A stretch of 64,000 nucleotides of DNA, taken from Artemia franciscana. Taxonomy: Eukaryota; Arthropoda; Branchiopoda; Anostraca; Artemiidae. The notes beneath the pieces were generated by a model. That model made no database searches. It saw only the letters and a program-made list of their open reading frames with translations, and was not told the origin of the DNA. A program made the position numbers and the translations under genes. The DNA is taken from the NCBI RefSeq assembly GCF_032884065.1, contig NC_088866.1, positions 25,175,580 through 25,239,579 on the forward strand, in the 5' to 3' direction. This document shows, in pieces, positions 3,791-61,615 of the stretch (its first letter is position 1; each line of letters begins with the position of its first letter).

Positions 3791-3794
3791 AAAA

Positions 3795-3985: not shown

Positions 3986-4204
3986 ATTGCCCTCTTACCT
4001 TCTTTCCTTGTTTTATGTGTTCTGAAAGTCCGTCATAACTTCTCCTTTTCAGGTGATAGAATTCAGTCCGATGAAATACCACTATCCGGATTTTTTTAAA
4101 CGTAGAGATAGTAAATGCATATAAGACGACCAATCAAAATTCATGCGTCAGAAGTGACAAAATCAAGCCCTGTAAACGCCCCAAAATTGGCCTTTTACCT
4201 AATT

Positions 4205-4430
4205 CTATTTTAGTATTTTCGGTATTCTATTTTCTCTATGTTCTACTTTTTCTCAATTTTTTCTCTGTATTCTGCTTTTTTCTCAATGTATTCTCTTTTT
4301 TCTCTATGCGATTTACTATTTTCTATATTCTATTCTCTCTGTATTTTATTTACTATTTTCTGTATTCTATTTTATCTGTATTCTACTGTTTCTCAATGTA
4401 TTCTCTATTTTCCGTATTCTATGGTATAAA
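4205..4430 (+). repeat. Pyrimidine-rich degenerate minisatellite
   Basis: Repeated variants of TTCTCTGTATTCTATTTT over about 220 bp. The 63-residue open frame in it consists of Phe, Leu, Ser and Tyr and is a product of composition. Confidence 0.6.
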
Positions 4431-4555
4431 ATATGGAAAATCCGACTCTAATTCTAAATTCTATTCTCTTATTCTGTGTTGAGATATCACTAGATTAAAG
4501 AGAAAATTGTTGCAATGGAAGATTACTAAAGTTGCCTTCAATTTTTTTTTTATGG

Positions 4556-6340: not shown

Positions 6341-6442
6341 TTTAAATCAATCTATTGATTCTTGCTAGTGTTCATACCATATGAGCTCTTGGCTCTTCCG
6401 GCCTCGTCACAAGTGCCATATGAGCTCTTAGTTCTTGTTTCT

Positions 6443-6524
<82 letters not shown>
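6325..6524 (+). repeat. Duplicated block ending in (TA)n, copy 1
   Basis: A block of about 118 bp (GCCTCTGATTTTCCC at the start, CCATATGAGCTCTT inside, twice) leads directly into a (TA)n run at 6443-6524. It is nearly identical to 8266-8510, including the interruption TATATACATATA just before the pure TA run. Confidence 0.85.
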
Positions 6525-6525
<1 letters not shown>

Positions 6526-6690
6526 TAGCTGTTGAAGCACCACCCCAACACCTAGTTGGTTGTCCCGGTCGTCATTTATATCCCCCTGTTTCCCCCGGTG
6601 TCCCCGTTGTAGTTGTGTCCCTGTGTCCCGGTCGTCATTTATATTCCCTGTGTCCCGGTCGTCATTTGTATCCCGGTGTCCCGGTCTGTA
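6525..6690 (+). repeat. Hairpin plus short tandem GTCCCGGTCGTCATTT repeats
   Basis: Directly after the (TA)n run lies an imperfect palindrome, ACTAGCTGTTG and CAACACCTAGT (one mismatch). It is followed by three or more copies of a unit of about 29 bp containing GTCCCGGTCGTCATTTAT. Further copies of this unit recur within the T-rich tract downstream. No protein was recognised. Confidence 0.6.
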
Positions 6691-8265: not shown

Positions 8266-8511
<246 letters not shown>

Positions 8512-8522
8512 TACTACTACTA

Positions 8523-11447
8523 CTAATAACTCACTGCAGCACCAAGCCGCCTGAGGCCAACACAGCTACGCACGCTCCTCCTCCAACCTAATCTATTTAA
8601 AGCCTCCCTCTTTACACCCTCCCAGGAAGTTCCCATTTCCTTTAAATCCTTATTTATGACATCCTCCCAACCCAGACAAGGACGACCTGCTTTCCGTGTA
8701 GCCCCAGACGGTTGGCCAAAAAGGACAATCTTCGGTAATCTGTCATCCTTCATCCGTAGAACGTGGCCTAGCCATCTCAACTTTTCTTTCATTATAGCCC
8801 CAGAAAGCGGGATTGAACCACGCTTTTCGTACAACCTACTGTTTGAAATACGGTCAGTCAGCCGGGTACCCAGAACAATCCGTAGGCAATTTCTCTGGAA
8901 AACATCTAGTAAATTTTCATCTGCTTTTCGGAGTGTCCATGCTTCAGAGCCATATTTGACCACTGTCATCACTGTAGCTTCCAATATTCTAATCTTGGTT
9001 TGTAGGCTTATCTTTCTATTCTTCCAAACTTTTTTTAACTGTGAAAAAACACCCTGAGCTTTAGCTATTCTACTTCTAACATCTTCACTGCTCCCACCAT
9101 CTTTACTAATAATACTACCAAGGTAACTGAAGCTCCCAACCTGATCAATCTTTTCGTTACCTAAGGTCACCTGCTCATCTTCACTTATTCCTAACCTTAG
9201 TGACTTAGTCTTCTTAACATTAATTTTCAAGCCTATTTTAGCACCCTGAACTCGTAAAACCTCTAAAAATTCATTCATTTTGCTCACACTTTCATCTAAT
9301 ATGCTTAAATCATCAGCATAATCTAAGTCCAGGAGCGTTCTTCCTCCCCATTTGATTCCATGGTCTCCAATTGCCTTTCCTGTGCTCCTTAAGACGAAGT
9401 CCATCAAAATGATCCATATAAAGGGGGATAGAACACAACCCTGCTTAACTCCTGATTTAATACAAAACCAGTTGCTAACCTCATTTCCTACCTTAACCGC
9501 AGCAGTATTATTCTCGTACATAGCGCAAATCACTTTAATGTATTTTTCTGGTATACCATATAACGATAAGACCTTTGTTAACGCTGTTCTATCAACAGAA
9601 TCGAAAGCTTGCTCATAATCGATAAAACTAAGGACCAAAGGTGTTTGACAACGAAGGGACTTCTCAATTATTAACCTAAGAGTGAAAACATGGTCGACAC
9701 ATCCTCTACCTTTTCTAAAACCGCATTGTTCTTCCCTTAAAACTTTGTCTACAGCATGTCTCAGTCTAAAAAGTATCATATTACTCAGTAATTTGCTACC
9801 TACAGAGACCAGACTAATGCCTCGATAATTCCGACATTCACTCTTGTCGCCTTTCTTATACAGAGGTTTAATTAAGGTTTTCCTAAAATCATTGGGTACT
9901 TCCCCTTTTTCAAAAATCATGTTCATAATCTTCAGTAGCTTATTCCTAACCTCAGAGCCACCATATTTAAGGAACTCATTAATCATACTATCAGCACCTG
10001 GGGCCTTATTATTTTTTAATCCTTCTAGCACTGTCGCTAATTCTTCCTCACTAAACAAATCTTCCTTCACATCCAAGGTATCACAAACTTTTTCATTTTT
10101 ATCTATATCTTTTCCTGCAACTGTATCTCGGTTTAGCACATTCTCAAAATGTTCCACCCATCTTTCTTTAACTTTTTCCTTATCACTAATTGTGACCCCA
10201 TTTCTATCTTTAACTGGGACTAGTCCGGATCGGCTACTCCCTTTCAATTTATTAACATGCCAGTATAATATTTTACTATTATGCCGTCTAGCCGCATCTT
10301 CCAGATCCTCAGCAATTTTATCCATCGCCTCCATTTCACATCTCCTTAGTTCATATTTTAATGCTTTCTCCACTTTCTTTACATTCCTTTTGTTTTCATA
10401 CGACCTATCGCTCAGATAATTCTTATACAAACCCCTTCTACTCTCTATTAAACCTAAAGCTTTTTCACTTATATTCCTAGTTGCTGTCTTAGCACTCTTC
10501 CCTAGGACACCATCAGCAACTTCACAAATTGTTTTTCTGAAATTATTCCAACCATCTTCCACATTGTCAAATTTTAAACCCTCAAGTTTAGTACTCAACT
10601 GTTCCTGGAATTTTTTTTTCAAATTTTCATCCTGAAGTCTACCAACATCATAACTTCCCGGGAGGGAGTTACTCTTCCGAAATTTCAGCTTTAAATTAAC
10701 CTTAGACACTACTAGATGGTGATCTTTACTTTTAACATCAATAACGGCACTCCTATACACCCTAGTATCTTGTATTGATCCTGCTAGTCTTCTGTTTACA
10801 ATAACATTATCAATAAGGTTTGCTGTCTTACCATCACGTGAATACCATGTCAACTTATGGGCCATTTTGTGACCAAACACCGTATTGGTTATAACTAGGT
10901 TGTTATACCTACAAAATTGCAAAAGCCTATAGCCATTACTGTTTTCTTTTCCTACACCAAAATTACCTAGGCTAGGATACCATCTATCCCTATTTCTACC
11001 AACCTGGGCATTAAAATCTCCTAGCAATAACACCATATTTCTACCTGGTACCCTGTCTATTTGCTCCTGTAACTGTAAGTAAAATTCATCTGAGTCACTA
11101 GTATCTCCATCAATTGGTTCAATGGGGGCATATACTACTATAACTGATACCCTAAACTTTTTAGTCATAAAATGAGCAATTAGTATTCTATTATTAATAC
11201 CTTCCCAGCCTAAACAAGACTTAGCAGCTTCCTTATTCATCATGAGCCCTACTCCCTGTCTATGTACCCCATCCTTCCTTCCTGAGTAAACAAATTCTAT
11301 GTCACCTAATTTCATGCTTCCTACCCCTGGGATATGAGTTTCTGAAACTCCTAATAAATCCAGTTCAAACCGTCTGAATTCGTCAGTCAAAATGTCGATG
11401 CGATAGTCATTTTTTAACGTCGTAACATTCCAAGTTCCAATTTTCAT
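8523..11447 (-). CDS. LINE ORF2: endonuclease and reverse transcriptase
   Basis: A 974-residue polyprotein without internal stop or frameshift. The N-terminal APE-type endonuclease (about 1-245) shows GTWN (N7), SETH (E36), GDFNAQVG (D144, N146), LIDNV (D213) and KDHHLV (D242, H243). The reverse transcriptase (about 470-740) shows [20 protein letters not shown], motif [10 protein letters not shown] (D610), [11 protein letters not shown] and YADD (710-713). The C-terminal region has [10 protein letters not shown] and [10 protein letters not shown], typical of RTE-type elements, and no RNase H domain. Size and domain order fit the RTE group, which copies RNA into nicked target DNA. The start ATG is followed at once by the endonuclease motif. 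The stop codon is the first TAG of the element's triplet tail. An intact frame implies recent insertion. Confidence 0.93.
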
Positions 11448-12440: not shown

Positions 12441-12600
12441 CTCACTAACGTGCAAATATATACCCTGAATTGGTATAGGCTAGGTCTGTATATGGTGAAT
12501 ATTAATTTCCTTTCTGATGCAAATGCACAATAACTTTGGATTCATGGATGCAATTCTGACTATAGAGATAAGTATTTTTCTTACTTGAAGTGTATGTGCA

Positions 12601-13510
12601 GAATTAGAAATTCTGCTGGTACTACAAAAGTAGACCTAAGTAGCCAATTTAGCCTGTCTGAAACATCTCACAAGCCAACACCTTATAAAAAACACCTTTG
12701 ATAATTTAAATGAATAAGAAAACTTATTAGAAATTCTGCTGATACTGCAAAAGTAGACCTAAGTAGCCAATTTAGCCTGTTTGAAACATCTCACAAGCCA
12801 ACACCCTATAGAAAACACCTTTGAGAATTTAAATGAAGAAGAAAACTTATTAGAGACTCTGCTAATACTGCAAAAGTAGACCCAAGTATCCAATTTAGCC
12901 TGTTTGAAACATCTCACAAGCCAACACCCTATAGAAAACACCTTTGACAATTTAAATGAATAAGAAAACTAGTTAAAAACTCTGCTAATACTGCAAAAGT
13001 AGACCTAAGTAGCCAATTTAGCCTGTTTGAAGCATCTCACAGGCCGACACCCTATAGAAAAACACCTTTGACAATTTAAATGAATAAGAAAACTAGTTAA
13101 AAACTCTGCTAATACTGCAAAAGTAGACCTAAGTATCCAATTTAGCCTGTTTGAAACATCTCACAAGCCAACACCCTATAGAAAACACCTTTGGCAATTT
13201 AAATGAATAAGAAAACTAGTTAAAAACTCTGCTAATACTGCAAAAGTAGACCTAAGTATCCAATTTAGCCTGTTTGAAACATCTCACAAGCCAACACCCT
13301 ATAGAAAACACCTTTGACAATTTAAATGAATAAGAAAACTTATTAGAAATTCTGCTGATACTGCAAAAGTAGACCTAAGTAGCCAATTTAGCCTGTTTGA
13401 AACTTCTCACAAGCCAACACCCTATAGAAAACACCTTTGAGAATTTAAATGAAGAAGAAAACTTATTAGAGACTCTGCTAATACTGCAAAAGTAGACCTA
13501 AGTACTGCAA
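12601..13510 (+). repeat. 123-bp tandem satellite, about 7.4 copies
   Basis: The block NTCTGCTNATACTGCAAAAG recurs at about 12608, 12731, 12854, 12977, 13101, 13224, 13347 and 13470, a period of 123 bp (once 124). Other landmarks in each unit are AGCCAATTTAGCCTGT and CTCACAAGCCAACACC. The final unit breaks off at about 13508. Units fall into subtypes by the joint sequence (TTATTAGAAATT, TTATTAGAGACT or AGTTAAAAACT). The 63-codon minus-strand frame inside is a consequence of the repeat. Confidence 0.95.
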
Positions 13511-13768
13511 AATACTAATGATGAATAAAACATGAATTGAAAGCGACGGAAAGCTCTGATTATCTGACTAAGCTAAAAACCAACCCTAAGAATATATATT
13601 CCTATACAAACTAAAAAAATGGCATGGGAAAGAAATTAAAGACATTTTTAGGCCAATGAGAATGTGCTATTTGCTTCTTTCAGCAAGAAGCATTATCAAG
13701 TAGTACTATCAATTAAAAATGTAATTTTGCCTAAAAAAAAATGTAGTATCTCTTTTGAGATACTACAT

Positions 13769-15443: not shown

Positions 15444-17635
15444 CTGAAAATAGGATTCTGTAGTTATTAATTTGCAATGTAAAAAAAATAATACAGAGTT
15501 GGGGAACACAGAAGTCTCGCGCGCTTATACTTCTTCACCTAAGCTACTTAATCGTTTGAGCAAAATTCTTAGAGTATTGCAGACACCAAATTATATTGTA
15601 GGTAACCTCTGTGTCTTTTCTCTGAGGGCAGAATACATCTTATAGGGCAATGTTCGCGAGCTGGCTTATTAAGAGCCATTCACTGCTAGATTTTACTAAT
15701 GTCGAGGTTTGTCTAGCGCTAATATGAACCAATCGTAATATTCCATAGAATTTTGCAGCCAATAAGGAAACTATAAAAACTCTGATTGGCTCAAATTAGT
15801 ATTAGCTAAATTTTGGTATTAGTAAAATGTCATTGTGTTTTCAAAATTTCAGTGAAAGCCAAGCCGGCTTAGCTTTCCATGTGCTATTCGCTACTATTAG
15901 ACTTTCCAGCTTTCAGTATGCGGTAAAAAAGACAGAGTTTTGTAAAAGAACATAAATAAAAGAGAATGAGAAACTTATAAGAATTGGATCTTCGGTGGTT
16001 TAATGTTGGATGCTTTAATAGCTAGCGCCACAACGTGGCTTCTAAAAACCTTTTTAAACAAACTAATTGTGCAGCATTCACTAGGATTTTTTGGGTCCTA
16101 GTGTTATTCTTTTGTTCTCAAACCCAAGTTGGAAGAAGCTAAGATAAAAATGTTCTCTAGGAATGTTTTATAACATTTGCTCAACACCTGCGAGAGAAAG
16201 AACTAATGCCATCTATATAATAATAAAAAATTAAAAAAAGTAAGCGCTATGGAGCATGAAACACATTTTTTGAAAAAGCGTTCCGAGCAAACTGGTTTGT
16301 TATGTTTCCCTTTGTTTTTTGCATTCTTAAAACCAGCCCTTTACTGAACTCTAATCTTTTTGTAGTTTTCTTAGAGAATTAAAAATTGTGTCGTAAAAGT
16401 TATAGATTTCATGGCCAGTGAAATACTGTTGAGAGCTTTATGAATTCATTCCTTTATTTCCTGCGGGTCACTTCAGATTTTTACTTTTTCTATTTCAGTT
16501 TTGTTGCGTCGGTTCTGTGCTTTCAGTAAAGCGTTTGTTTTTCAGAATACTACAAATACAGGAAAGTACCGCGAGCCAACTTGTTAGAAACAGTTTTTCA
16601 AAAACATGCTACATAAATCGAGAAACAGTAATTTTTTTCTCTTTAAGTTTTAATTTCGCTCTTTACTTTCATCAAAAAAATATTTTTTTAAACTAATTTT
16701 AAAATAGCATAAGATAATATTTATTCTAACTAGTAGAACTAGTTAAGATAATTTTTATTTTCCAAAAGACTAACACAGCTCTAATGGAGCTGAATATGCT
16801 TCTTATCTCACATAAAAGAGAAAAAAACCGAAGCCACCAAAACAAAAGAAAATGTCAATATGAAAAATGGCAACAATTATTGTGACAGTCCCGGAAACAA
16901 AAGAGAGACGAAGGAGCTTCATTTTGTTCATGAAGAATACCAAGAGTTATTTAGGATCTCCATGGTAAAGGGAATTAAACTCTTTCGGAATTTGTTGCCC
17001 GTAATAGGATAAATGAGTGAGTACGTTGGGACAGCTTAGAATGCTAAGCAGGGGGAACGGGCTCTAGTTAGGGTCTAGATGTAAAAATCGGAGGAAATGT
17101 CTCAGTTGGGACATTAGAAATAATGGATTTAGCAAAAAAAAACAAACAATTATTGCATCCCCCTTTGGTTTAAGGTGGTAAGGCGTGCAAATTTAAGAAC
17201 GACGGTGTATGGTATCCTTCAATCTTTACGAACCCTTCTGGACGGTCTCAATTTTTTTCGTAAGATACTCTAGAAAGCTGCGGATGCTAGACAGGACATG
17301 CGTATTCCAATATCGGCCTGACTAAGGATAGGAAAACACGGAGAGCATGTACTCTTGGGAACTTGAATTTATTCAGCAGTTTAAACAAGCACGGCGATGA
17401 TCTTACTTGTTTTACAACGTTCAAAACATTGTGTATATCTACTTATAGATTGCTGAAAATTGTGATACTATTGAGCTTAACCTGTTTCATAACCATTTTT
17501 TAGGGAGCTGGGGGTCTAGGAAATCGGGTGTAAATTTGAAGAAGTTCAAAGTCATAATCTGTGATTTAAGAGTACTTACTTTTACATTTAGATTACCAGC
17601 AGGATCCGAGGTATGGTACGAGGTATTTACGATAA
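15444..17635. other. UFSP1 intron 3, proximal part
   Basis: AT-rich intron. The only structure I see is a diverged dispersed repeat at about 16550-16710 that matches 20300-20440 (CNAACTTGTT..AACAGTTTTTCAAAAA.. and TTTTAATTTCGCTCTTTACTTTCATC). That second motif is also a distant relative of the palindromic-core arms. Confidence 0.45.
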
Positions 17636-17639
17636 AGTT

Positions 17640-19141
17640 TTTAATTGTTTTCAAAAGTAGAACTGTGGCAAAGAGTCAAACTTTAGCGTAAAGAGCGAGG
17701 GATTGCGGAGGGGACAACCCATTTCATATACGAAGTAATTTCTGTTCGTTTTAAGTTTCAATGTCGCTCCTTACTTTCAGTTAAAAAAAACTAGCTTTTT
17801 TTATTTAATTTCTGAACGTTTTTGAATTAATACATGTTTGATATTGGCTCTCCGCACGTAAATTATTAAAATGAAATTTGCATATTAATTCTTTTTTTGG
17901 CTAAATGGCTTTCTCTTAGTTTTGATCAGACAATTTTGAGAAATAAGGGGTGGGGAAGGAGCCCTGTTGTCCTCCAATTTTTCGTTTACTTAAAAAGGCA
18001 ACTAGAACTTTTAATTTTTAACGAACGTTTTTATTAGTAAAAAATATACGTAACTTAAGAATTAAATTACGTAACAAACTTTTATATTCTTATATTTTTA
18101 TTATGTATATGAGGGGGTTCGTCCCCTCGTTCATACCTCGTTCTTTACACTAAATCTTAAGTTTTGTCCCAATTCTTTAAGAATAACCCCTGAATCAGAA
18201 AGGCCGTAGAATAAATAGTTTAAATTACTAAAAATACTTTAGCATGAAGAGCGAGGTATTTATCTTCTCCTAAAGACCTCGCTCTTTATGCTAAAGTACT
18301 TTTAGAACCCCTCATACGCATAATAATCTCTGTTCGTTTTAAGTTTTAATGCTACTCAATAATTTCAATTGAAAAAACTTTTTCATGTTTATTTTTTCAT
18401 TGTTTTTTATAGTAATGCTAGAAAATCCCGCGCCCTTTTCATGGAATTTCTCTTCCCCCATGACATATTCCTCCAAGGAAAGATCCTCCCGCATAGCCCC
18501 CTCCCATCAACCCCACCCCCAAACCAACAAAATCCCACTGAAAACGTCCGTACGCTTCCCAATAACCATTACTGTATGTAAACACAGGTCAAAGTTTGTA
18601 ACTTGCAGCCCCTCCCACAGGGACTGGGGGGGAGTAAGTCATCCCCAAAGGTGCCCTCCAATTTTTTTGGTCACTTAAAAAGGGCACTAGAACTTTTCAT
18701 TTCTGTTAGAATGAGCCCTCTTGCGAGATTCTAGGACCACTTGGTCGATACGATGACCCCTGGAAAAAAAAAACAAAAAACAAATAAACGCACCCGTGAT
18801 CTGTCTTCTGGCGAAAAATACGAAATTCCACATTTTTGTAGATAGGAGCTTGAAATTTTTGCTATAGGGTTTTCTGATACGCTGAATGCGATCGTTAAGA
18901 TTCTATGACTTTTAGCGGGTGTTTCCCCCTATTTTCCAAAATGAGGCAAATTTTCTCAGGCTCGTAACTTTTGATGACAAAGACTAAATTTGATGAAACT
19001 TATCCATTTAAAATCAGCATGAAAATCCGATTCTTTTGATGTATCTTTTAGCATCAAATTTCCGTTTTTTAGAGTTTCGTTTACTATTGAGCCGGGTCGC
19101 TCCTTACTACAGTTCGTTACCACGAACTGTTTGATAAAGTC
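17640..19141 (+). repeat. Palindromic-core repeat family, longest copy
   Basis: About 1.5 kb non-coding element. In order it shows a right half of a palindromic core (AACTTTAGCGTAAAGAGCGAGG to CTCCTTACTTTCAGTT, about 17680-17790); a module with TTTTGATCAGACAATTTTGAG and ACTTAAAAAGGCAACTAGAAC; a second core at 18105-18380; a region with CCATGACATATTCCTCCAAGG; a second related module at 18655-18720; a 400-bp conserved tail; and an end at the perfect hairpin ACAGTTCG-TTACCA-CGAACTGT followed by TTGAT. Other copies share this end. No open frame suggests a protein. The class (MITE, SINE-like or other) is undetermined. Confidence 0.75.
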
Positions 19142-27337: not shown

Positions 27338-29204
27338 GAAAAATAAGAAAAGGCTGTTGGAACCTGATCAGAAAATGTGCTTTAATAGGGCTCCGAAGGA
27401 TGCTCAGTTACTGGTCAGCTACTCTTCAGTCAGCTACTAAAACCTATTTCCGTTAGAAAAAAGAAAGATATTCAAGAACATATACTTACGAAATGCATGT
27501 CATCTATATAATATTCCTGAGTAGAGTATTTTCATCTATTCTTGTGACTTTCAGTGCTTTATGGATAAATTTTGTTTCTTTTATACAAATAAATCCTAAT
27601 TATCAACATTTTTAATTGTTCAATTAGGAATGCCTTAGCTAAAGATATCACTGATTTAGGTTGCGATTAGAAGTTTACGATTCTGCAAACTATGTTAATT
27701 ACAATTAGCTTTTTAATTGTTAAATTATAGTAAGAAAGCCTTACCTTCTCCTTAGTCGTTGTTGATGAAGGCCATGACTGGAGCTTTGTGATACCCTAAA
27801 TTACTTTCGCCGGATGGATTTGTGGATCTCTTTATGGGGGAGGGAGGGGTAGTGGCTTATAAATCCTGACGCCACGCAAATTTGCGTTACGCCGGCAAAT
27901 AGCAGATATTAGGAAAATCATTGGCGCGCCCCCTATTTTTTTTATTAGTAAGGTGCCTCAAACTTGTTCAAAACACCTTGGTGACGTATCATTCAAATTT
28001 GAACAAAAAGATGATTTTGTTAAAGCCCTTTAGAACTTCAAAGGTTTGTACTACATAATGAATAACTTAAATTTGAGGAAAACACGAAAACCTGCTATCT
28101 CAAATACTTAGTTGAAGACTCTATGGGATCAAGAGTATTTTTTAAGACTTTTAATCTCTTACTTTTCAATAGACGGCAGAACACTGAAAAAGTTCAGTAC
28201 TCAGTTCGTCTAGGGGAAGAGGGGAAAACTACAGAAAAACAACATCTTGCAAAAGCCCAGCCGCATAACATTTATACCACAACCCATTTGGAGGCACTAA
28301 CTAGGACAAGATTTAGACGATGGAAGCCGCAATGAATGCAAATGCAAGAGGAAACTACCTTATATCTCCATTCTAACAGGCAAGGGCCTTGGAACGGGGG
28401 GGGGCAGCACCTCAAATTTTTTTATTCGGTTAAACTTAGACTAAGAGTCCAAAATTATGCCGAATTACTTTAAAAAAGGAGTAGATACAATAAAATCTCG
28501 GATAATCCAAAATTTTAATCCGATTTTGATACCAATTCAAGATTCGGCAAAAAAGGTCAAAAATTCAAAAATTAAAAATATAAGTTCTTTGAAGGAATAC
28601 CTGGAACTTAGTGGCTGGAACTTTTTCCAGCCACTTGAGTATTATGTTGGTAAATGTAAAGCATTTTCAATAATCATTTATAGATACTAATGATTCACTT
28701 GCAACAAACCTACTATGTAATTTAAATAGTTTTTACGATTTCCAATGGGACCTGAGATTAAGTTTTTTATTTCTTTTTCTACATCTCTAAACTTAGAATT
28801 TTGTGCATTTAGAGAACTACGAAATGCAAAAGCTGCAATGACAGCAGTTTGAAGCGCCAAACGAGCATTTTAAAGCTCATATTTTTCAAATTGTATTAGT
28901 GGTTTTATAAGTCAATATGGATATTTAAAGGAATTATCTAAACCAAGCGTGCAATATGGATTTTGACGGGTGATAATTTCCTTTTATTACTAAACATTCC
29001 CTATGTAAAATAAATGGTTAAATTCCGATGCTTAACATTACAGAAATAAGATGAGTTGGCCTAAGAAAAATTACTGCCCGAGGAACCCATCCTCAAAATG
29101 TTAAATTAATGACCAGAAATTGTTTTAGACGTTTCTGAACTTAATCTAAATTTAAATGAACATTAAATAGACTTAATCACATTAACTTCCTTTAAAATTA
29201 AATA
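27338..29204. other. UFSP1 intron 2, no recognised feature
   Basis: AT-rich sequence. I see no exon or clear repeat. A small palindrome, ACGCAAATTTGCGT, lies near 27875. Confidence 0.45.
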
Positions 29205-30338
29205 AAAATAACAAGTTTTTTCAACTGAAAGTAAGGGGCAACATTAAAACTTAAAACGAACAGAAATTATTCCGTACATGAAAAGGACTGTCTCCTCATC
29301 AACATCCCGCTCTTTACGCTAATATTTTAAAAAGTAGAGTTGGGACAAAGAGGCAATGTTTAGCGTAAAGAGCAGGGCGTTGATGAGGGGACAGCCTCTC
29401 CACTGACAAACTCTCCACTGAAAAATCCTTCCTCCCAAAGGGTGAAAATTTACCAAAGACAATTACCCTTAACGTCTCCATGCATAAAATTGAGTAGGCA
29501 GTGAGAAAGTAAGACATGAGAAGAATTTCGTATAGGAATTCTGGCAAATCCCCCTATGTTCAATTTCCTCTGAAAAATTCTCCCGCTGGAAACTTCCATC
29601 CCCATGAAAAACTCTCCCCGTGGAAAATCCCACCAGTAGAAAATCCCCCCCGAAAAATGCATGCATACTTCCCTATAATAAATACGATACCTAAACAATA
29701 GACAAATTTTGTAACTTTGACCTTTCCTCAGGGACTGTGGGGGTCCTGATATCTCCAAAGGCAGATTGTTTTGGCCTTTTGGTTTTAAAATTTTGATAGA
29801 CAATTTTGAGATAAAAAGGGGCGTGGGAGGAGGCCTGGTTGCCCACAAATTTTTTGGTCACTTAAAAAGGGCGCTAGAAAATTTCAATTTCCGTTCGAAA
29901 GAGCTCTTTTCCGATATTTTAGGATAACTATGTCAACACGATCGCCTCTGGGAAAAACAAACGAAAAACAAACAGATAAGCACGCATCCGTGATCTTTCT
30001 TCTGGCAAAAATACAAAATTCCACTTTTTTCAGATAGGCGCTTGAAACTTCTGCAGTAGGATTCTCTGATATGCTGAATTTTAAAGTTTTATTTTCATAA
30101 GGATTCTATGACTTATAGGTGGTTTTCCCCTTTTTTCAAAAATCAGGCAATTTTTTCCAAGCTCGTAATCTTTCATGGATGAGACCAAACTTAATGAAAC
30201 TTATTCGAAGTCAGCATAAAACTCCTATTCCTTTGATATATCTATTAGTATCAAAATCCCGTTTTCTAGAGTTTCGGTTACTATTGAGCCGGGTCGCTCC
30301 TTACATACAGTTCGTTATCACCAACTGTTTGATGTTGC
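29205..30338 (+). repeat. Palindromic-core family copy
   Basis: Starts with a left arm (CAACTGAAAGTAAGGGGCAAC) at about 29218, a core at 29300-29390 with a truncated right arm, and GAAAA-TCC-type motifs. Then come a module with TGGTCACTTAAAAAGGGCGC (about 29855), the conserved 400-bp tail, and the hairpin end (TACAGTTCGTTATCACCAACTGTTTGAT, one stem mismatch) at about 30311-30338. It lies 71 bp beyond the UFSP1 exon 2 donor. Confidence 0.7.
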
Positions 30339-31318: not shown

Positions 31319-31837
31319 TGACTAGAATATTCAACCAGGTCAAAGAGATGAGACACTGAACCTTATAGTATCGTTCATTTCTGATTGAATGATATTCACT
31401 TAAACTATCGAATTTCAGGAGTTTCGATACGGGCCATAAATAGAGTGTCGTCATATACGGTAGGTGAGGGTGTCCCCTGTAGTACTCTACTCCCAAAGTA
31501 TATAGCACTATCTAAATAATGCAGAGTAATTACATCAATTTACCATGTGAAAAACGCCGAATGATTTTAAGAAGAATTTTGAATTTGGTAGTCACTACTT
31601 GTCGCTACTGCTTGTCGATAGCAGCTTATTCAGTAGCAATTAGCTGAGAAAAAGGCTTGTCTAATATCAAGGCTGATTATTAAGCTCACAAATTAATTAC
31701 AGAAGTAAAAATTTCCTATCGTTTAAAAATTTCCTAGGATAGTTTCTAGGCCAATCGATTAAAAATAAGTGATTTGAAGTTATCTGAGTTATCAAACCTG
31801 AGATTTACGCTACATTTCTTTAATACATTAACTAAAA

Positions 31838-33450
31838 AAAAAACAGTTTTTTTTAACGGAAAGTAAGGAGCGGCATTAAAACTTAAAACGAACAGAAATT
31901 ACTTCATATATGAAAGGGGCTGCTTCCTCATCAACGCCCCGCTCTTTACGCTAAAGTTTGACTCTTTCTCTTAACTCTACTTTTTAAAACAGTAACAAAC
32001 TTTAGCGTAAAGAGCGGGGCGTTGATGAGGAAGCAGCCCCTTTCACATACGAAGTAATTTCTGTTCGTTTTAAGTTTTAATGCCGCTCTTTACTTTCCGT
32101 TAAAAAAACTTGTTTTTTATTTAATTTCTGAACGTTTTTGAATCAATGCATGTTTTGATTTTGGCTCACAGCAGATGAATAATGAAAACGAAATTTGCAT
32201 ATTTACTTTTTTGGCTAAATGGCTTTCTCATAGTTTTGATCGAATGACTTTGAGGAAAAAAGGAGCGGGGGAGGAGGCCTAGTTGCCCTCCAATTTTTGG
32301 TTACTTAAAAAGGCAACTAGAACTTTTAATTTTTTACGAATGTTTTTATTAGTAAAAGATATACGTAACTTACAAATTAGCTTACGTAACGAACTTCTGT
32401 ATTCTCATGTTTTTATGACGTATATGAGGGGCTCCCCCTCGTCAGTACCTCGCTCTTTACACTAAAGCTTAAATTTTGTCCCAATTTCTTAAGAATGACC
32501 CCTGAATCACAAAAGCCGTAGAGTAAATAGTTGAAGTTACTAAAAATACTTTAGCGTAAAGAGTGGGGTGTTAAGAGGAGGTGAGCCCATCATATGCGTA
32601 ATAATTTCTGTTCGTTTTAAGTTTTAATGCTTCTCCTTACTTTCAGTTGAAGAAACTTTTTCATATTTATTTTTTCATTTTTTTTTAAATAATGCTAGAA
32701 AATCCTGCGCTCCCTTCATGAAAATTTTCTGTCCCCATGACAAATTCCTCCAAGGAAAGTTCCCAAAACATATCCCCCTCTTCTCAACACCCCCCCCCCC
32801 CAACCTAAAAATTCCCCTGAAAACGTCTGTACACTTCCAAATGACCATTACTATATGTAAGCACTGGTCAAAGTTTTTAACTTGTAGCCCCTCCCACGGG
32901 GACTGCGGGGGAGTAAGTCGTCACCAAAGACATAGTTATAAGGTTTTACGCTAAATAAAATGGCTATTCCAGAATTTTGATCCGGTGACTTTGGGAAAAT
33001 AATTAGCGTGGGAAGGGGCCTAGATGCCCTCCATTTTTTTGTCACTTAAAAAGGGTACTAGAACTTTTCATTTCCTTTAGAATGAGCCCTCTCGCAAGAT
33101 TCTAGGACCACTTGGTCAATACGATCACCCACGGGGAAAAAACAACAAAAAAACAAACAAACAAATAAACACGCATCCGTGATCTGCCTTCTGGCAAAAA
33201 ATACAAAATTCCACATTTTTCTAGATAGGAGCTTGAAACATTTACGATAGGGTTCTCTGATACGCTGAATCTGATGGTGTGATTTTCCTTAAGATTCTAT
33301 GTCTTTTAGGGGTTGTTTCCCCCTATTTTCTAAAATAAGGCAATTTTTCTCAGGCTTGTAACTTTTGATGGGTAAGATTAAACTTGATGAAACTTATATA
33401 TTTAAAATCAATGTTAAAATGCGATTCTTTTGATGTAGCTATTAGTATAA
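31838..33450 (+). repeat. Palindromic-core family copy with near-perfect palindrome
   Basis: The first core (about 31846-32110) has two arms of about 114 bp that differ at about three positions, around a spacer of roughly 20 bp. Then come the module (TTTTGATCGAATGACTTTGAG, 32237), a second diverged core (32405-32660), the CCATGACAAATTCCTCC part (32740), a second module (32975-33075) and the tail. The tail breaks off at about 33440 without the terminal hairpin. It sits in UFSP1 intron 1. Confidence 0.8.
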
Positions 33451-34139
33451 TATTCCATTTTTCCCCCAACCCCAAAAAAAAACCTTCCCCCAGAAAATAG
33501 GTAGTGCTTATACAGTCCTTAGCTCTTTCTGGTCCTAAGACACTTGTTGTTTCTTTCTAGATCTAAATGGCCAGAAGACTTGAGATACATGTGTAACAAG
33601 TCGACTGTGTCACCCAAATCAGATTATGAGATAATGAATCAATAATCAACAAGCTTCATCAATATATCAACTCTACCATCCCTTGCTCCTCCAAGAACAC
33701 ATTAATTCGTGATTCATAAAAATTCATAAGAATTAATAATGTCTAATTCATAAGAATTAAACATTTATTTTTTATAGAAAGCTTTCTAGGTTATATAGAA
33801 AGAAACTATTGTACCATCTATTTCATCTATTTATTTTCAAAGGGTACTGGATATGGCAAGCTCCCATCCTGAATTTAGGCACATTTGGTTCCCAAATTAG
33901 CAAGCTACTACCTTGAGTTTAGACTCAATAAGATTCCTATGGACACCAAACAACGCTGCTTAAGTGATCTTTATGCATTTCTTCTTTCTGGATTTTGTAG
34001 CGGACTTTCTATGTACTGTCAAGTAAGACTTTACTCAGTAAAACTAAATTTTCACACCCATGAATGTTCTAAACATTACAAGAGATATCAAAAACATCAC
34101 AGAAGATATTTAAAATATCAAAGGAAGCATAAAACTTAC

Positions 34140-35869: not shown

Positions 35870-38800
35870 AATACAATATACCCCCGGGGTAGAATTTACA
35901 ACACTTGCCCTCTGGGGGGCGGTGTTACCCCTGGAGTTTTTGTTATATGATCTTTGGTCTATTTTGAAAAAAAAATGGCTATATAAAAATTCGATCGGAT
36001 GCATTTGAAGAAAAGGGGGTGTGGGGAGGAGATATATACCCGCAGATCACTTTTAATGATTCTTAAAAAGGTAGCAAGAACTTTCAATTTCCAATCAAAT
36101 GAACCACCTCTGATGTTTACACGACCACCCCTTACATAAAACCTTATCTGCCCTCTGGGCATAGCTTACAAGACTCTCCTCAGGCTCTGGGGGGATATGT
36201 CGACCCCTGAGTTTTTCTTATTTGATCTTTAAACTATTTTGAACAAAATCCCTGTCTCAAAATTTTGATCGAATGCATTTGGGGAAAAAACAGCCGAGGG
36301 GAGGGGGAGCTAGTTGCCCTCTGATCACTCTTGACTCTTAAAAATGGCTCTATTAATTCCTATTTACAATCGAATTAGCCGCCTCCGAATCTCATACGAC
36401 GATGTCTTCCATAAGAACCTTATATGTCCACGGGACATAATTTAAAACACTTGCCCCGGAGGTTCTGGAAGACTGTATTATCCCTGGAGTTTTTGTTATA
36501 TGATCTTTCGTCTATTTTGAACAAAATGGCTCTATAAAAAATTCGATCGGACGCATTTAGGGAAAATAGGGTTGCAGGGAGGGGGGAGCTAATAGCTATC
36601 GCATCACTTTTGACTCTTAAAAAGAGAATTAGAACTTTCAATTTCTAATTATTTGAGTCCCCTCCAAGGTTTATACGACATCTTCTTCCATAAAAACTTT
36701 ATATGCCCAGGGCGTAAGTTACAACCCTTCCCCTGGGCTCCGGGGGATGGGGGGGATGTTGACCCCGAAATATTGGCTATCTGATCGTTGGACTATTTCA
36801 AACAAACTGGGAATCTCAAAATTGTGATCAGATACATTTGGAGAAACAAGGGTGTGGGGGGATGGGTTAAATACTCTCGGATCCCTTCTGACTCATAACA
36901 AGGCAACATAAAATTTTAAAGTCCAATCAAATGAGCCATACATTAAGTTTATGCGACCAACCATTACATAAAAACCTTTTATGTCCGCGAGGCATAGCTT
37001 GAAACACTTGCCCCCAGGCTATGAGGGTTTGTGCCGACAAAAATAGTGTTTGAACTATTTTTTTTAAAAAAACTGGGCATCTCAAAAAAAATTTCGGATA
37101 GGTTTTAGAGAAAGGGGCATGGGGGCTAGTTGCCCTCTGATCTCTTTTGACTCTTAAAAAGTGAACCAGAACTTTCAATTTACAATCAAATGAGCCCTCT
37201 CTGAAGTTTATACGAAAATCTCTTCCATAAGAACCATATATGCCCCAGTGCATAATTTGCAACGCCTGTCCTCGGGCCCTGAGGGGTTGTGTTGACACCG
37301 GAGTTTTTGTCATCTGATTTTTTAGCTATATTTAAAAATGGTTATTTAAAAACTTATATCAGATGGATTTGGGAGAAGAAGAGCGTGGGGGGAGGCTAGT
37401 TGCCCTCTGATCACTTAGGACTCTTAAACAGAACACAATAATTTCCGATTTCCAATCAGATGAGCCCAGTCTGAAGTTATACGACCATCCCTTCCGTAAA
37501 AACCTTATATGCCCCCGGTGCATAATTTACAACACTTGCCCTGGAGGTTCTGGGGGGCTGTGTTATCCCTGGAATTTTTGTTATATGATCTTTGGTCTAT
37601 TTAAAAAAAATGGATGTATGAAATTCGATCAGACACATTTGGGGAAAAGCGGGTTGCGGGGGGGGGCTAGTTGCCATCGGATCACTTTAGACTCTTAAAA
37701 TGGGAATTAGAGTTTTCAATTTTTAATCATTTGAGTCCCCTCCGAGGTTTATGCGACCACTTCTTCCATAAAAATTGTATGTACCGGGGCATATACAGGG
37801 CATAAGTTAAAACCTTTCCCCTGGGCTCTGGAGGGTTATGTTGACCCCTAAATATTTGTTTTCTGCTATTTCAAACAAACTGGCCGTCTCCAAATTATGA
37901 TCAGATGCATTTGAAGAAACAAGGGTGTGTTTGGGGGGTGTCATCCAGTCAAATGAGCCACCTATGAAGTTTACAAGACAAACCGTGACTCTTAAACAGG
38001 GCACTAGAACTTGCGATTTCGAATCGAATGAGCCCCCTTCAAAGTCCCTAGGTATTGGGGGAGGGGGGGCTATGTTATCCCTGTTGTTTTTGTTATATGA
38101 TCTTTGGTCTATTTTGAACAAAAAGGCTATATAGAAATTCGATCAGACGCATTTGGGGATAAGGGGGTTGGGGCAAGTTGTCATCGGTATATCTCAAAAT
38201 GGCCATCTCAAAGTTTTGATCGGACAAATTTGGGGAAAAGAAGGTGGGAAGAGAAGGTATATGCCTGTAGATCACTTTTGATGACTCTTAAAAAGGCAAA
38301 TAGAACTTTAAATTTCCAATCAGATGAGCCACCTCTGATGTTTGTACGACCACCCCTTACATAAAAGCTTATCTACCCCCTGGGCATAACTTACAATGCT
38401 TCCCCCAGGCTCTGGGGGGAGGGTGTCGACCTCAGAGTTTTTATTATTTGATCTTTAAACTATTTTGAACAAAAGGGCAATCTAAAAATTTTGATTAGAC
38501 GCCTTTGAGGAAAAAGGGCCTAGAGGGGGGGGGACTTTTGCCCTCCGGTCAACCTTTACCGTAAAAGGGGCTCTATAAATTCCAATTTACGATGAAATCA
38601 GCCCCCTCCGGAGTTTATACGACCTTCCCTTCCATAAAACCTTATATACCCCTGGGGCATAATTTACAACACTTGCCCCCAGATCCTGGGGCAAGTATTG
38701 CAATCTATTGCAACAGTTTGTAATCTGATCTTTGATCTATTTTTAAAAATGACTATCTCAAAATTTTTATCAGATGCATTTGGGGAAAAAAGAGCGTAGG

Positions 38801-38900
38801 GAGGGCTAGTTGCCCTTCAATCACTTATGGCTCTTAAAAAGGGCACTAGAGCTTCCGATTTCCCATCAAATGAAGTTTATTATCCTCCGGAGTTTATACG
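35870..38900 (+). repeat. Tandem array of about 270-bp monomers
   Basis: About eleven diverged monomers. The landmark ACCTTATATGCCC-like followed by GGGCATAATTTACAACACTTGCCC recurs at about 36133, 36413, 36691, 36971, 37229, 37498, 37769, 38362 and 38634, with a rearranged stretch between 37.9 and 38.3 kb. Each monomer also has TTGTTATATGATCTTTGGTC, TTTTGATCGGACGCATTTGG, a G-rich run, and GACTCTTAAAAAGGGCACTAGAAC. The last two motifs are shared with the modules of the palindromic-core family. Open frames here are composition artefacts. Confidence 0.85.
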
Positions 38901-51215: not shown

Positions 51216-52092
51216 GTGAGAATTTGAAAATAGAGTTTATGTTTTCATTTTTTTTTTTAAGTTCAAATACTTTACATTTCTGTTTCAGCTTTTGTTGTAC
51301 TTAAAAGAATTATCATCAGTACTGTTGTTAGTTTTATCAGGGAATTCACAGTACTTAGTAGATGCTCTGGCCACAAAAGCTTATCCCCTCCTCTCAGTAA
51401 AAGCCACCAATATCTTAGCTGCTTGGCTGTTTGTGTTCCCCTACGCATCTCCTGTTGAGAGTATTTGTCTATCTCTTTGTTCCCCTTTGTGGAAGAGTCA
51501 TCCCTGGTATATTCAAGGTATTCACCATTGTTTTCCCCAATCCTGAGGACCCCACCTGGTAGCTTGACACTGGCTTATACATGCAAAATTCTTCCCTAAA
51601 AAGACAGGAGAGAGTCATCGACCACTTGCCAGCCATCAGTGGGAAGGGATACAGGATCTACAAAACCAGTACTAGTAAGAGAAATTGTTCCCCTCCCCCT
51701 CTCAGTTTGTTTCTCAAGTGATCCTCTCTTGCACCATAATTGGAACTTAATGTGTTCAAGGTGATCAGCCTTGGGTATGATTTGGCAGCCAATACTGGCA
51801 GTGTACTTCAGTACATCCAATCTTGGCAGCAATCTTACCTCCCCCCCCCCAAAAAAAAATACAAATTTTCTTAGTACAAAAAGATCAGCCTAATTTCGGT
51901 CGTTCACCCTTTCTGTTGTCTCCTGTCGTATGTTTAGTAGGGCTAAACAATAGTCGGGATATAGTCTTTTTCAATCCATAGGATGTGGATTATAAGTCAT
52001 TTTTGTCAGCGTCCTAGCTATAGTGAAACGCAAAAGGTTCTTAATTAGGATGGGATGGAAATTATTAAAGCTTCTAAACCTTTTTGAATATC

Positions 52093-52390
52093 TAGTACTG
52101 CTACTAACAACTCACCATAGTACCCAGCGGCTTGAGGCTAACACAGCTATGCACGCTCCTTCTCCATCGCAATCTCTGCAAAGCCCCCCTCTTTACACCC
52201 TCTGAGATGTTTCCATTTCCTTTGAGTATTTCCTTACGACATACTACCATCCCAACCAAGGACGACTTGTTTTCATTTTAGCCCTGGACGGATGGCCGAA
52301 AAGGACACTCTTTAGGAATCTGTAGTGTCATCCATCATCTTCTGAAGCCCCCTAGCCATTTCAACCTGTCTCTCAGATATTGGTGAATAT
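52093..52390 (-). pseudogene. LINE 3' fragment in duplication unit 1
   Basis: Complement of the RTE-like LINE end: a degenerate TAG tail, then CACCATAGTACCCAGCGGC, CCCTCTTTACACCCTC and the [10 protein letters not shown] region, up to about the LRWLGHVLR region. Frameshifted. Confidence 0.8.
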
Positions 52391-53231
52391 CTTGGGAAGG
52401 AGTATAACGTTTAAAATGGGTGAGATGGAGTAGGAATATGGACAGAGCCAGTGAAGCAGCCACATTTGGCTTTGCTCTGATATAAATTTGCTGTAGTTGT
52501 AGTCACAAAAGCCTATCGCCCCCTCCCCTCAGTAAAAAGCACCAATGTCTTAGCTGCTGGGCTCTTTGTGCTCCCCTGGGCATCTCCTATTGAGTATGTT
52601 TGTCTATCTCTTTTTTCCTCTTTGTGGAACAGTCATCCGTCGTATATTCATGGTATCCACCATTGATTTCCCCAATCCTGAGGACCCCACCTGGCAGCTT
52701 GACACTGACATATACATGCAAAATTCTTACCTAAAAAGACAGGAGAGAGTCATCCACCACTTGCCAGCCATCAGTGGGAAGGGATACAGGATCCACAAAA
52801 CCAGTACTAGTAAGAGAACTTGTCCCCATCCCCCTCTACGTTTGTTTCTCAATAGATCCTCTCTTGTAGCATAATTGGAACTTCATATGTTCAAGGGGAT
52901 CAGCCTTGTGTATGATGTGACAGCCAATACTGGCAGCATACTTCAGTACATCCAATCTTGGCAGCAATCTTGCCTCCCCCCCCCAAAAAAAAGAAAAAAA
53001 CACTTCTTTAGTACAAACAGATCAGCCTAGTTTCGGCTGTCTACCCTTTCTGTTGTCTCCTGGGGTATGTTTAGTAGGGCTACTCAATAGTCGGGATATA
53101 GCCTTTGTCAATCCATAGGATGTGGATTTTAAATCATTTTTGTCTGCGTCCTAGCTATAGTGAAACACAAAAGGTTCTTAATTAGAATGGGATGGAAATT
53201 ATTAAAGCTTCTAAACCTTTTTGAATATCTA

Positions 53232-53530
53232 GTACCACTACTAACAATTCGCCATAGTACCCAGCGGCTTGAGGCTAACACAGCTATGCACGCTCCTTCT
53301 CCATCCCAATCTCTGCAAAGCCCCCCTCTTTACACCCTCTGAGAAGTTTCCATTTCCTTTGAGTATTTCCTTACGATGTACTACCATCCCAATCAAGGAC
53401 GACTTGCTTTCTGTTTAGCCCTACACGGATGGCCGAAAAGGACAATCTTTGGGAATCTGTAGTGTCATCCATCATCTTCTGAACGCCCCCTAGCCATTTC
53501 AACCTTTTTAACAGATATTGGTGATTATCA
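53232..53530 (-). pseudogene. LINE 3' fragment in duplication unit 2
   Basis: Duplicate of the fragment at 52093-52390, at the same offset as the rest of the 1.13-kb unit. A degenerate TAG tail is retained (ACCACTACTAAC on the plus strand). Confidence 0.8.
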
Positions 53531-58640: not shown

Positions 58641-59610
58641 TGTAGCAAAATAATTGAGGACAATGGGCTACATAGGAGAATCTTCCATTGGAGAAATTTG
58701 TCATGGGAGAGGAAAAACTCCATGAAGGGGGTGCAGGATTTTCTAGCACTATTTAAAAAAAAACAATGAAAAAATAAATATGAAAAAGTTTTTTCCACTA
58801 AAAGTAAGAACCAGCATTAAAACTTAAAACGAACAAATATTATAACGCATATGAGGAGTTCATCTTTTCCTAAATACCTCGCTCTTTATGCTAAAGTTTT
58901 TTAGTAATTTCAACTATTTATTCTACAGCCTTTGTGATTCAGGGGTCAATCTTAAAGAATTGGGACAAAATTAAAGCTTTAGTGTAAATGCGAGGTATTT
59001 ACGAGGGGGCAAACCTCCTCATATACATAATAAAAATAAACGAATATAGAGGTTCGTTACGTAAGTTAATTTGTAAGTTACGTGTATTTTTTACTAATAA
59101 AAACATTCGTTCAAAATAAAAAATTCTAGTTGCCTTTTTAAGTAACCGAAAAATTGGAGGGCAACTAGGCCTCCTCCCCCACCCTTTTTGTCAAAATCGT
59201 ATGATCAATACTAATATAAGGCCATTTAGCAAAAAAAAACAAAAAAAAACGCAAATTTCGTTTTAATTAATCATTTGCAGAGAGCCAAAATCAAACATGC
59301 ATTAATTCAAAAACGTTCAGAAATTAAATAAAAAAACAAGTTTTTTTAACTGAAAGTAAGGAGCGACATTAAAACTTAAAACAAATAGAAATTACTCCGT
59401 GTATAAAAGGGGCTGTTCCCTCCTCAACGTCCCGCTCTTTACGTTAAAGTTATTTACTGTTCTATGAAGTAGAATTGAGAGAAAGAGTGAAACTTTAGCG
59501 TAAAGAACGGGACGTTGAGGAGGGAACAGCCCCTTTTGTACACGGAGTAATTTCTGTTCGTTTTAAGTTTTAATGTTGCTCCTTACTTTCAGTTAAAAAA
59601 CTTTTTTTAT
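58640..59610 (-). repeat. Palindromic-core family copy, inverted
   Basis: Minus-oriented copy in reverse order: the CCATGACAAATTCTCC part (58690), the diverged core (58790-59045), the middle module (59070-59290), and a well-preserved core at about 59340-59600 with two arms of about 111 bp (about six differences). The long tail and the terminal hairpin are absent. Confidence 0.8.
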
Positions 59611-59995
59611 TTGATATTGCGTAAGACCCAGGTGGACGCAATAGCGTTTAACAGAAACCCTTTGTTCTTGAAAAATCAGTTCAGGATCACGTAACGCTTC
59701 GCCCTTTGTTCGCCCAGAAGATTTCTGGGGGGGGGGTGAAGTTTTCAGGGAAAAAGTTTAAGTGAAGTTTACACTGGGGGGATTTTCTAGAATTCCTATA
59801 CAATTTTTTGTTATTTGTCTTACCTTCTCTTTGCCGACTCAATTATAAATGTGGACATGTTAAGGGTAATTGTCCGGGGTAAAATTTCGCCATAATTTAG
59901 TTGTCTTAACGATTGTGCTGTGGGGTGAAATTTTTCTGTAAAGGGAGAGATGGGTATTCCCACTTTGCTTAAGAACTACCAGTAGTTAAGTAAAA
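59611..59995. other. TRAFD1 intron 2, unassigned
   Basis: No feature recognised apart from short G-runs. Confidence 0.4.
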
Positions 59996-59999
59996 GAAC

Positions 60000-60320
60000 A
60001 AGTTGTTGAAATTGAAAGTAAGGAGCAGTATTAAAATTTAGAAGGAACAGAAAGTACTACGTATATGAGGAAGATGTCCCCTTCTTAATACCTCGCTCTT
60101 TACCCTAAAGTTTGACTTTTTGTCATAACTCTTTAAGAACGACTCCTGGAACAAAAGGGTCGTTTAATTAGAACAATAAAAATCTTTTTTAAAAGTACTA
60201 AAAAACTTTAGGGTGAAGAGTGATTATTTAGGAGGGGACAATGCCCCTAATGCACGGAATAATTTCTGTTCGTTTTAAGTTTTAATTTTGCTCCTTACTT
60301 TCAGTTGAAAAAACTTTTTT
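60000..60320. repeat. Isolated palindromic core
   Basis: Diverged core with both arms (TTGAAATTGAAAGTAAGGAGC at the left, CTCCTTACTTTCAGTTGAA at the right) and a longer spacer containing the GACTCCTGGAACAAAAGGG block seen in the second cores of longer copies. Both arms carry the variant CTTTAGGGT in place of CTTTAGCGT. Confidence 0.75.
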
Positions 60321-61615
60321 ATTTGACTTCCAAAGACAAATACGCCTTTTGTTATGCCTTTTGTAGCTGTTTAATGTCATTTTTAATTTTTAGTGGACAA
60401 CGTTTTTTCAATGTTCAATGCTTCTTTAATGTTCAATTTTCTTCAGCTGTTTAATGATAAAATACCATCTCCTCTTCATTCATAATCCCTTTCTAGGCAA
60501 AATATAGTATACATGGGGGAATATACAGCTTTTATGGTATATTACATAATTGCTAAATCAGGTAATTATGTGGGTGATGAACTATAGATATTCTAAATTC
60601 ATTCTAGCTTATGGGAATTTCATGTTTGAATTGACATAATTGATATATAAAAAAAACTATAACAATATTTTGAAAAATTGGAGCTATGATAATTTTTTTT
60701 ACAGTTGGATGTTCTATTATTCACGGGGCTGAGAACTCCCGAATATGTTATTGGCTGCATTCCAGGTTGCAAGCAGTAGTAACTTTACATTAACTACAGA
60801 AGTTACTTAAACTTGGCATCCGCCGGGAAGGGTGGTGAAGTAACTAAGGGCTTATTAGGCTTAACAACATAATCTTCTTGAGTTTGAATTGTATCCATCT
60901 CTTTTTCGCTCTAGTGGTCTCATTTTATTTCAATCTAATAGTAATACCAATTATGATCATTAATACAGATTTAGTTCGCTAATGATGCCCATTAGCTGTT
61001 TTATGTAAAAGTTACTGCAAAAGTAAGTTTAAAGTTACTCTTCTATCTTTCGACTATTGCGAAAGCGTCAGATGGAATGAAAAGAGTGGATTTTAGTAGC
61101 TTTTCTTCGAACCTAGAACGTATTCTTCGTCATCAGGCATGTACGTAGATTTTAGGGTGGTGGGGTGCAAAGTAAAAAAAATATTTGGTAATTGTAATAA
61201 CAAGTGTCCAGAAATTTGTAAAACATAGGATTTCAGGGGAGGGTGTGACCTCGTTCGCACGCTTCCCTAATTTTAATATATTAATTACATTTTATCAAAA
61301 TTATACACATATATGTAGCAGCGTTGCCATTGAGAATTTAACACTATTTTAAGATTCACATGCAAAAAGTCTCAAGGCTTAAAAAATCTCAATATATTAA
61401 ATAATGATAATATGTATGCTAACTATACTGTATGATGGTGATGTTCATATATTCTTTTTCAAAAATCGCAAACTCAGGAGTGGCATCGCAAGAACTTGAA
61501 CAAAAACCAAGAAGTGGCAGCGCTAGTTTGTACCACCATGGTTCGTGATCCCTTATGTAAGACCACCATAGCCGCTAATGTCTATAATCTATTTAGTGTC
61601 TAATTTTTTTTTTAG
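60321..61615. other. TRAFD1 intron 2, distal part
   Basis: AT-rich; no exon. A G-rich degraded repeat may lie at 61135-61270. The acceptor TTTTTTTTTTAG lies at its right end. Confidence 0.45.

Follow-up and report, generated by a model that had tools for sequence, protein, structure and literature searches.

Symmetric changes between subfamilies and mostly one-armed changes in resident copies at the 5'-terminal palindrome of an abundant Artemia franciscana element

Palindromic cores found in a 64,000-nt stretch of the Artemia franciscana genome (hereafter the window) raise the question of whether the two arms of a dispersed palindrome evolve together and, if so, by which route they are kept alike. 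The original prediction, made from the letters of the window, held that the arms of each core co-evolve, either through arm-to-arm conversion or through repeated new formation of the palindrome by template switching. In mammals and willow, gene conversion between arms is described as keeping the two halves of large sex-chromosome palindromes alike (PMC8981503, PMC7023750).

The palindromes themselves are real. The arms of core 1 are 131 nt long and 95% complementary, and those of core 2 (59330-59451 and 59491-59612) are 122 nt long and 92% complementary; as had been claimed, the arms show 3 differences in core 1 and 6 substitutions plus a loop-edge gap in core 2 (~107 aligned nt). The diagnostic sites described for each core are likewise present in both of its arms, namely AACGGAAAG and CTTCCTCATCAACGCCCCGC in core 1, AACTGAAAG and GTTCCCTCCTCAACGTCCCG in core 2, and CTTTAGGGT in a third, isolated core. 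Among 37 copies of the third family, the isolated core included, the CTTTAGGGT base occurs in both arms only in the isolated core and in one arm of two others. Folded as single-stranded DNA, core 1 yields -137.7 kcal/mol against -29.9 +/- 4.1 for 100 shuffles, far beyond chance. The features of the window are collected in Table 1.

Table 1. Palindromes and element copies in the 64-kb window.
Feature	Position	Strand	Remarks
Core 1, 5'-terminal palindrome of copy A	31828..32126	+	host A at 31827; end placed by comparison with other copies
Core 1 left (outer) arm	31830..31960	+	131 nt
Core 1 loop	31960..31996	+	37 nt; inverted in other copies
Core 1 right (inner) arm	31996..32126	-	131 nt; terminates in inverted terminal sequence ATTTAAT
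Copy A spacer/tail	32127..32412	+	
Copy A inner palindrome	32413..32604	+	arms ~32413-32488 and 32533-32604
Remainder of copy A	32605..33462	+	homology with other copies stops at 33462
Copy B	58682..59615	-	5' end is core 2 at 59330-59612
Copy C	17626..19135	+	without outer arm; 3' hairpin at 19110
Copy D, degraded	29187..30333	+	3' hairpin at 30308
Third-family 5'-terminal palindrome (isolated core)	59992..60324	-	family related to that of copy A; terminus on high-coordinate side

Searching the A. franciscana genome (1.27 Gb, 6468 contigs) revealed an abundant element, with 3120 to 9184 first-look candidates per core query, of which the best 40 were scored; copies were ranked by their similarity to the palindromic queries, a caveat that applies to the sample as a whole. 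Element orientation was set using positions 32127-32530. Across 70 copies retrieved with ~1.5 kb of flank (L001-L070), the left host flanks are unrelated, save in duplicates and nested copies, and the right arm is followed by a conserved tail; at the 5' boundary, the end motif (T/C)TAAAT could be located in 56 of 66 loci, and a host A directly precedes it in 55 of these. Because of the unrelated flanks, the common boundary and the conserved tail, we read the core as the 5' end of a longer element, the 5' end of copy A itself reading TTAACTA. Full copies measure ~1.6-1.7 kb (about 1.65 kb) and end in a hairpin, CAGTTCGT-TACC-ACGAACTG, followed by TTTGA. This hairpin or close variants of it gave 43 matches in 42 of the 70 loci, at least 3 of these matches being stray, and the 3' flanking base is T in 26, A in 5 and C in 1 of 32 loci. 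Copy A stops short of the 3' hairpin carried by other copies, and the interval 31828-33462 contains no ORF of at least 120 aa. A 12-bp subterminal inverted repeat is formed by GTAAGGAGCGAC, which lies in the 5' arm consensus ~33 nt from the element's 5' end, and its complement GTCGCTCCTTAC, located just before the 3' hairpin. No long inverted repeat joins the two ends, which have 12-13 bp in common; since both palindrome arms lie at the 5' end, the element is not a foldback element or MITE with long terminal inverted repeats. Judged by comparison of its copies, the palindromic core thus appears to be the 5'-terminal palindrome of a longer non-coding, non-autonomous element of Helitron/HINE-like (rolling-circle-like) type. 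The element also resembles an internal dimer of palindrome plus spacer (32217-32342 is similar to 32958-33084, 80%), and three loci (L070, L058, L014) hold head-to-head or nested copies; in L070, for example, only 15 bases separate two cores, and a tail follows on either side.

A rolling-circle class is plausible for this element, which shares features with two known groups without coinciding with either. HINE/DINE-1 elements are described as non-autonomous Helentrons, non-coding, with subterminal inverted repeats of 12-15 bp, a 3' stem-loop and insertion at TT without target duplication (PMC4067079). As in that description, the element is non-coding, dispersed and abundant, has its 12-bp subterminal inverted repeat and a short 3' stem-loop, and is accompanied by related tandem units, here in the window. 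It differs from the elements described there in being flanked by A at its 5' end and mostly T at its 3' end rather than TT, in the distance of the subterminal repeat from the 5' end (~33 nt, against 2-4 in the mite HINEs) and in having a palindrome of ~300 bp at the 5' end where DINE-1 has a short inverted repeat (PMC4067079). Given flanks of A and T instead of TT, we did not file it as a HINE. Such flanks, found in 55/56 (A) and 26/32 (T) filled sites, resemble those of canonical Helitrons, from which the element differs in lacking 5' TC and 3' CTRR, its ends being (T/C)TAAAT and TTTGA. Helitrons make up 8.81% of a published A. franciscana assembly of 6486 scaffolds (PMC11492255).

Whether arms pair by copy or by side was assessed on an alignment of 81 copies, 53 belonging to family 1 (core 1 or core 1 plus tail queries) and 28 to family 2 (core 2 query). 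Four segmental duplicates (L003, L007, L059, L065) were left out of these statistics together with L071, L079, L083 and W3; three copies (L096, L099, L104) were left out of family 3, leaving 37, among which L102 and L112 were retained with their common flank, and L129-L134 enter none of the statistics. Fifteen of 18 fetched copies have two usable arms, L071 and L079 being left-truncated and L083 having lost almost all of its loop; the one-armed elements suggested by an apparent start in the loop in most of the best copies proved to be an artefact of separate local matches.

The mean distance between the two arms of a copy is 0.050 over the 81 copies, against 0.092 for left arms among themselves, for right arms among themselves and for left and right arms of different copies. 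The corresponding values (own, left-left, right-right, left-right of other copies) are 0.047, 0.063, 0.065 and 0.064 in family 1, and 0.055, 0.072, 0.063 and 0.069 in family 2. Mean distances give no side signal. When partners were shuffled, none of 10,000 permutations was as low as the true pairing in either family, nor within subfamilies 1T, 1G and 2 taken separately, and no shuffle in 10,000 was as close in family 3 (n=37). The 15 copies from the tail-including query pair in the same way (own 0.084, others 0.097-0.099), again with none of 10,000 shuffles as close. In a quickly built arm tree of the kind that the original prediction had proposed as its check, a clade of all left arms was rejected (p-AU 0.00025, with one group of identical rows unconstrained), and side changes 51 times. 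Pairing of arms by copy, seen in the permutations, is weak at the level of single arms: the tree contains 12 own-partner cherries for 81 copies, and the own partner is among the nearest arms in 34 of 162 cases. Nearest-arm counts carry a weak side signal, with 61 of the 162 arms having nearest arms on the same side only and 34 on the opposite side only, which indicates that some arm asymmetry is inherited.

A sharper picture emerges when differences between subfamilies are separated from changes private to single copies. The majority left arm equals the majority right arm in 1T (15 copies), 1G (33), 2 (28) and 3 (37), with the exception of one loop-edge gap in family 2. Between 1 and 13 substitutions separate the subfamilies and every one of them is present in both arms, so that the symmetry of differences claimed for the cores extends to all inter-subfamily substitutions; three further edge columns that differ with respect to family 3 originate in how the arms were cut. 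Since groups 1T and 1G were defined by the same state in both arms at their single diagnostic site, that site is symmetric by construction; considered independently, 15 of its 16 carriers are two-armed and one is left-only, and 5 of the 53 family-1 copies, with another or mixed state, were placed in neither group.

Private changes, in turn, are one-armed in 219 of 228 cases. Those present in both arms number 5/79 in family 1, 2/65 in family 2 and 2/84 in family 3, where ~0.2 would be expected by chance in all, and this excess of nine may represent either minor subfamilies or some conversion in residents. The two arms of a copy partly share their deviations from the subfamily consensus, the LR/(L+R) ratio being 0.66, 0.62 and 0.76, not 1. 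Segmental duplicates give the same result: three of four pairs differ, at 14 positions in total, and all 14 changes are one-armed. Two-arm changes account for 6/6 of the source differences (1T vs 2, loop-edge gap omitted) and for 7/144 of the resident ones, a contrast (Fisher p 1.2e-7) that must be read in the light of the different ascertainment of consensus and private sites. Symmetric differences between subfamilies together with one-armed private changes imply that arms are equalised in transposing lineages and mostly drift in residents; the co-evolution of arms put forward in the original prediction holds for the former and fails for the latter.

Nor are the arms equalised at every transposition. 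At column 67 of family 1, G is found in the right arm alone in 7 copies, in both arms in 7 and in the left arm alone in none; G is taken as derived because the consensus of the other subfamilies is A. Five of the seven right-only copies are 1T and all seven both-arm copies are 1G, so the two states were not observed as steps within one lineage. In many family 2 copies the two sides also differ at column 114, which lies next to the loop. Asymmetries common to several copies at these two columns indicate that asymmetry is inherited and symmetry restored only now and then, and the asymmetric states common to several related copies rule out a strict form of renewal at every transposition. Divergence of arms and tails was compared in 66 copies and gives no support to a simple clock: tails deviate from their subfamily consensus by.056 (1G),.100 (1T) and.052 (2) and arms by.011-.038, tail deviation is uncorrelated with own left-right distance (r.04, -.34 and.17 for 1G, 1T and 2), and arm/tail divergence is in any case unusable as a clock because the core-based choice of copies lowers arm divergence.

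The inner palindrome provides a contrast within the same element. This palindrome could be extracted from 56 of 66 copies, in which its arms group by side, with distances of 0.230 between own arms, 0.133 among left arms, 0.136 among right arms and 0.235 between left and right arms of other copies. The side-separated pattern named beforehand as refutation is therefore seen in the inner but not in the terminal palindrome; position is not the sole difference between the two, since the inner palindrome is also shorter-armed, with a loop of ~70 nt. Family 3, which is terminal, has identical arm consensuses yet much drift. The expectation that its longer loop would make it side-separated was not borne out (own.161, left-left.171, right-right.174, left-right of other copies.175, n=37).

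The loops add a second record of events within the palindrome. Most copies of families 1 and 2 have loops of 37-38 nt, homologous between the two families (37/38 nt, z 10.5), which argues against new formation of their palindromes. In 4 of the 86 loops read (L021, L029, L037, L088), the loop is inverted relative to the tail. An inverted-loop probe for family 1, cut from L029, gave 33 loop-spanning matches among the 40 scored, its own locus included, and a joined inverted-loop probe for family 2 gave 29 of 40, by probe match alone. Six fetched copies from those 33 are all loop-inverted, with both 1G and 1T loop types and differing arm changes, and several independent inversions would be the simplest reading. 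Among inverted-loop copies, the left arm is incomplete in L131 and L133, and L132 has fully identical arms, with four changes from the 1G consensus in both. In L130 the loop is duplicated and the two loops enclose a stretch of arm, an arrangement that may be a scar of template switching. Family 3 loops are longer (86-92 nt, 40 copies read) and resemble the loop of the inner palindrome in inverted orientation (z 7.8, 0/2000 shuffles), an orientation that would reflect an older inversion. Between the family 1 loop and the inverted family 3 loop the resemblance is weak (z 3.4, 6/2000), and the family 1 loop shows no match to the inner loop (z -0.1 and 1.2).

On balance, the symmetry of the 5' palindrome is probably maintained by conversion between its arms, coupled to transposition and occasionally accompanied by inversion. 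The arms would pair as a hairpin or cruciform, for instance in a single-stranded transposition intermediate, where mismatch repair or gene conversion between the paired arms could equalise them; conversion without crossover would leave equal arms, and crossover-type events would invert the loop. Marks of both kinds, equal arms and inverted loops, are present. Equalisation would be tied to transposition, as in the case of rolling-circle single-stranded DNA, and after integration the arms of a resident copy would mutate largely independently. That residents show little equalisation suggests that arms pair mainly in the transposition intermediate. What the copies display directly are subfamily changes in both arms, private changes of residents that are mostly confined to one arm, asymmetries that are passed on, and inverted loops. 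It is also possible, if rather unlikely, that transposition renews the tip through fold-back copying of the terminal hairpin, as a chromosomal counterpart of flip/flop hairpin transfer, erasing arm differences and sometimes inverting the loop; symmetry would then be a by-product of replication and not of gene conversion in residents.

The main rival, which we consider unlikely, is selection for symmetric hairpins: only near-perfect hairpins, of DNA or RNA, would transpose, and either compensatory changes would follow in the second arm or only symmetric copies would found subfamilies. The palindrome is indeed very stable on folding, and arms may be constrained, given that the consensuses of families 1 and 2 differ at 6-7 of ~107 arm positions and at 38/390 and 33/398 tail positions. 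However, several related copies carry asymmetric states at column 67 and at the loop-edge column 114 of family 2, which shows that elements need not be strictly symmetric; moreover, some of the symmetric changes are transversions, for which no wobble intermediate exists, and a single copying event is likelier than two independent hits at each site.

Parvovirus ends carry a terminal palindrome with an asymmetric loop in two orientations (flip/flop). The element resembles them in exactly these respects, and a terminal hairpin transfer of this kind, in which the folded strand serves as template for its own tip, inverting the loop and exposing mismatches to repair, would fit the terminal position, the palindromic arms and the occurrence of both loop orientations in family 1 and, by probe, family 2. 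We find it more doubtful than selection, as inverted loops are a minority (3/40 in the first sample and 0/29 in the judged family-2 sample) and not near half. Unlike parvoviruses, the element is a chromosomal repeat without viral genes, and inversion in it is confined to that minority.

The second route of the original prediction, in which template switching made the palindrome of each subfamily afresh with identical arms, is disfavoured and appears improbable. New switch points should produce new loops, yet families 1 and 2 have one homologous loop together with symmetric differences at 6-7 sites. The duplicated loop of L130 resembles a scar of template switching, and it is not clear that families 3 and 1 have the same loop, which would allow new formation between family 3 and families 1 and 2.

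An assembly or polishing artefact, with reads from one arm correcting the other, is very improbable: near-identical arms are indistinguishable to short reads and such correction could create perfect copies such as L132, but most private arm differences survive, and identical symmetric states turn up in copies that are unlinked. The absence of any arm exchange, with a single perfect ancestral palindrome spreading and its arms merely drifting, would account for equal left-left, right-right and left-right distances inside one subfamily and is scarcely credible, as it explains neither the symmetric fixed differences between subfamilies, which already contradict it, nor the pairing of own arms inside each subfamily.

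If arms are converted, and loops now and then inverted, in the course of transposition, this system would stand apart from the sex-chromosome palindromes, where the published accounts place conversion in residents (PMC8981503, PMC7023750): in the element it is the transposing lineage that is homogenised, whereas resident copies mostly drift. The system thereby separates homogenisation in the mobile lineage from drift in resident copies, which are usually mixed. With its many copies and its internal palindrome control, it could record the fate of a hairpin during rolling-circle-type transposition, and symmetric changes and loop inversions would together yield a conversion:crossover ratio within a 300-bp palindrome. 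No comparable case was found among the titles and abstract openings of the literature searched.

The A. franciscana genome contains many open Helitron frames. At locus L128, the one Helitron locus read out of 150 scored matches, some 286 bases lie between the end of the element and the start of a 1663-codon Helitron frame, which belongs to a canonical-looking Helitron with a CTAG-type end (L128:1864-6852, G000:C4) whose ends differ from those of the element. This Helitron was considered as an autonomous partner and rejected: 39 of the 40 scored matches to a junction probe start at the element's end and one joins it to the element, which points to a chance neighbour. Its start has 39 other scored matches at 99-100% identity, which suggests that it may have been recently active.

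Further repeats occupy other parts of the window. Tandem-like units of ~270-280 bp at 35900-38900 are ~61-74% related to the element spacers. A 974-aa ORF on the minus strand (8523-11447) presumably encodes a non-LTR retrotransposon endonuclease/reverse transcriptase. A tandem array at 12481-13642 has a spacing of 123-124 bp and copies 65-93% identical to the reference copy, and a direct duplication at 51385-53277 has an offset of ~1136 bp and an identity of 90-91%.
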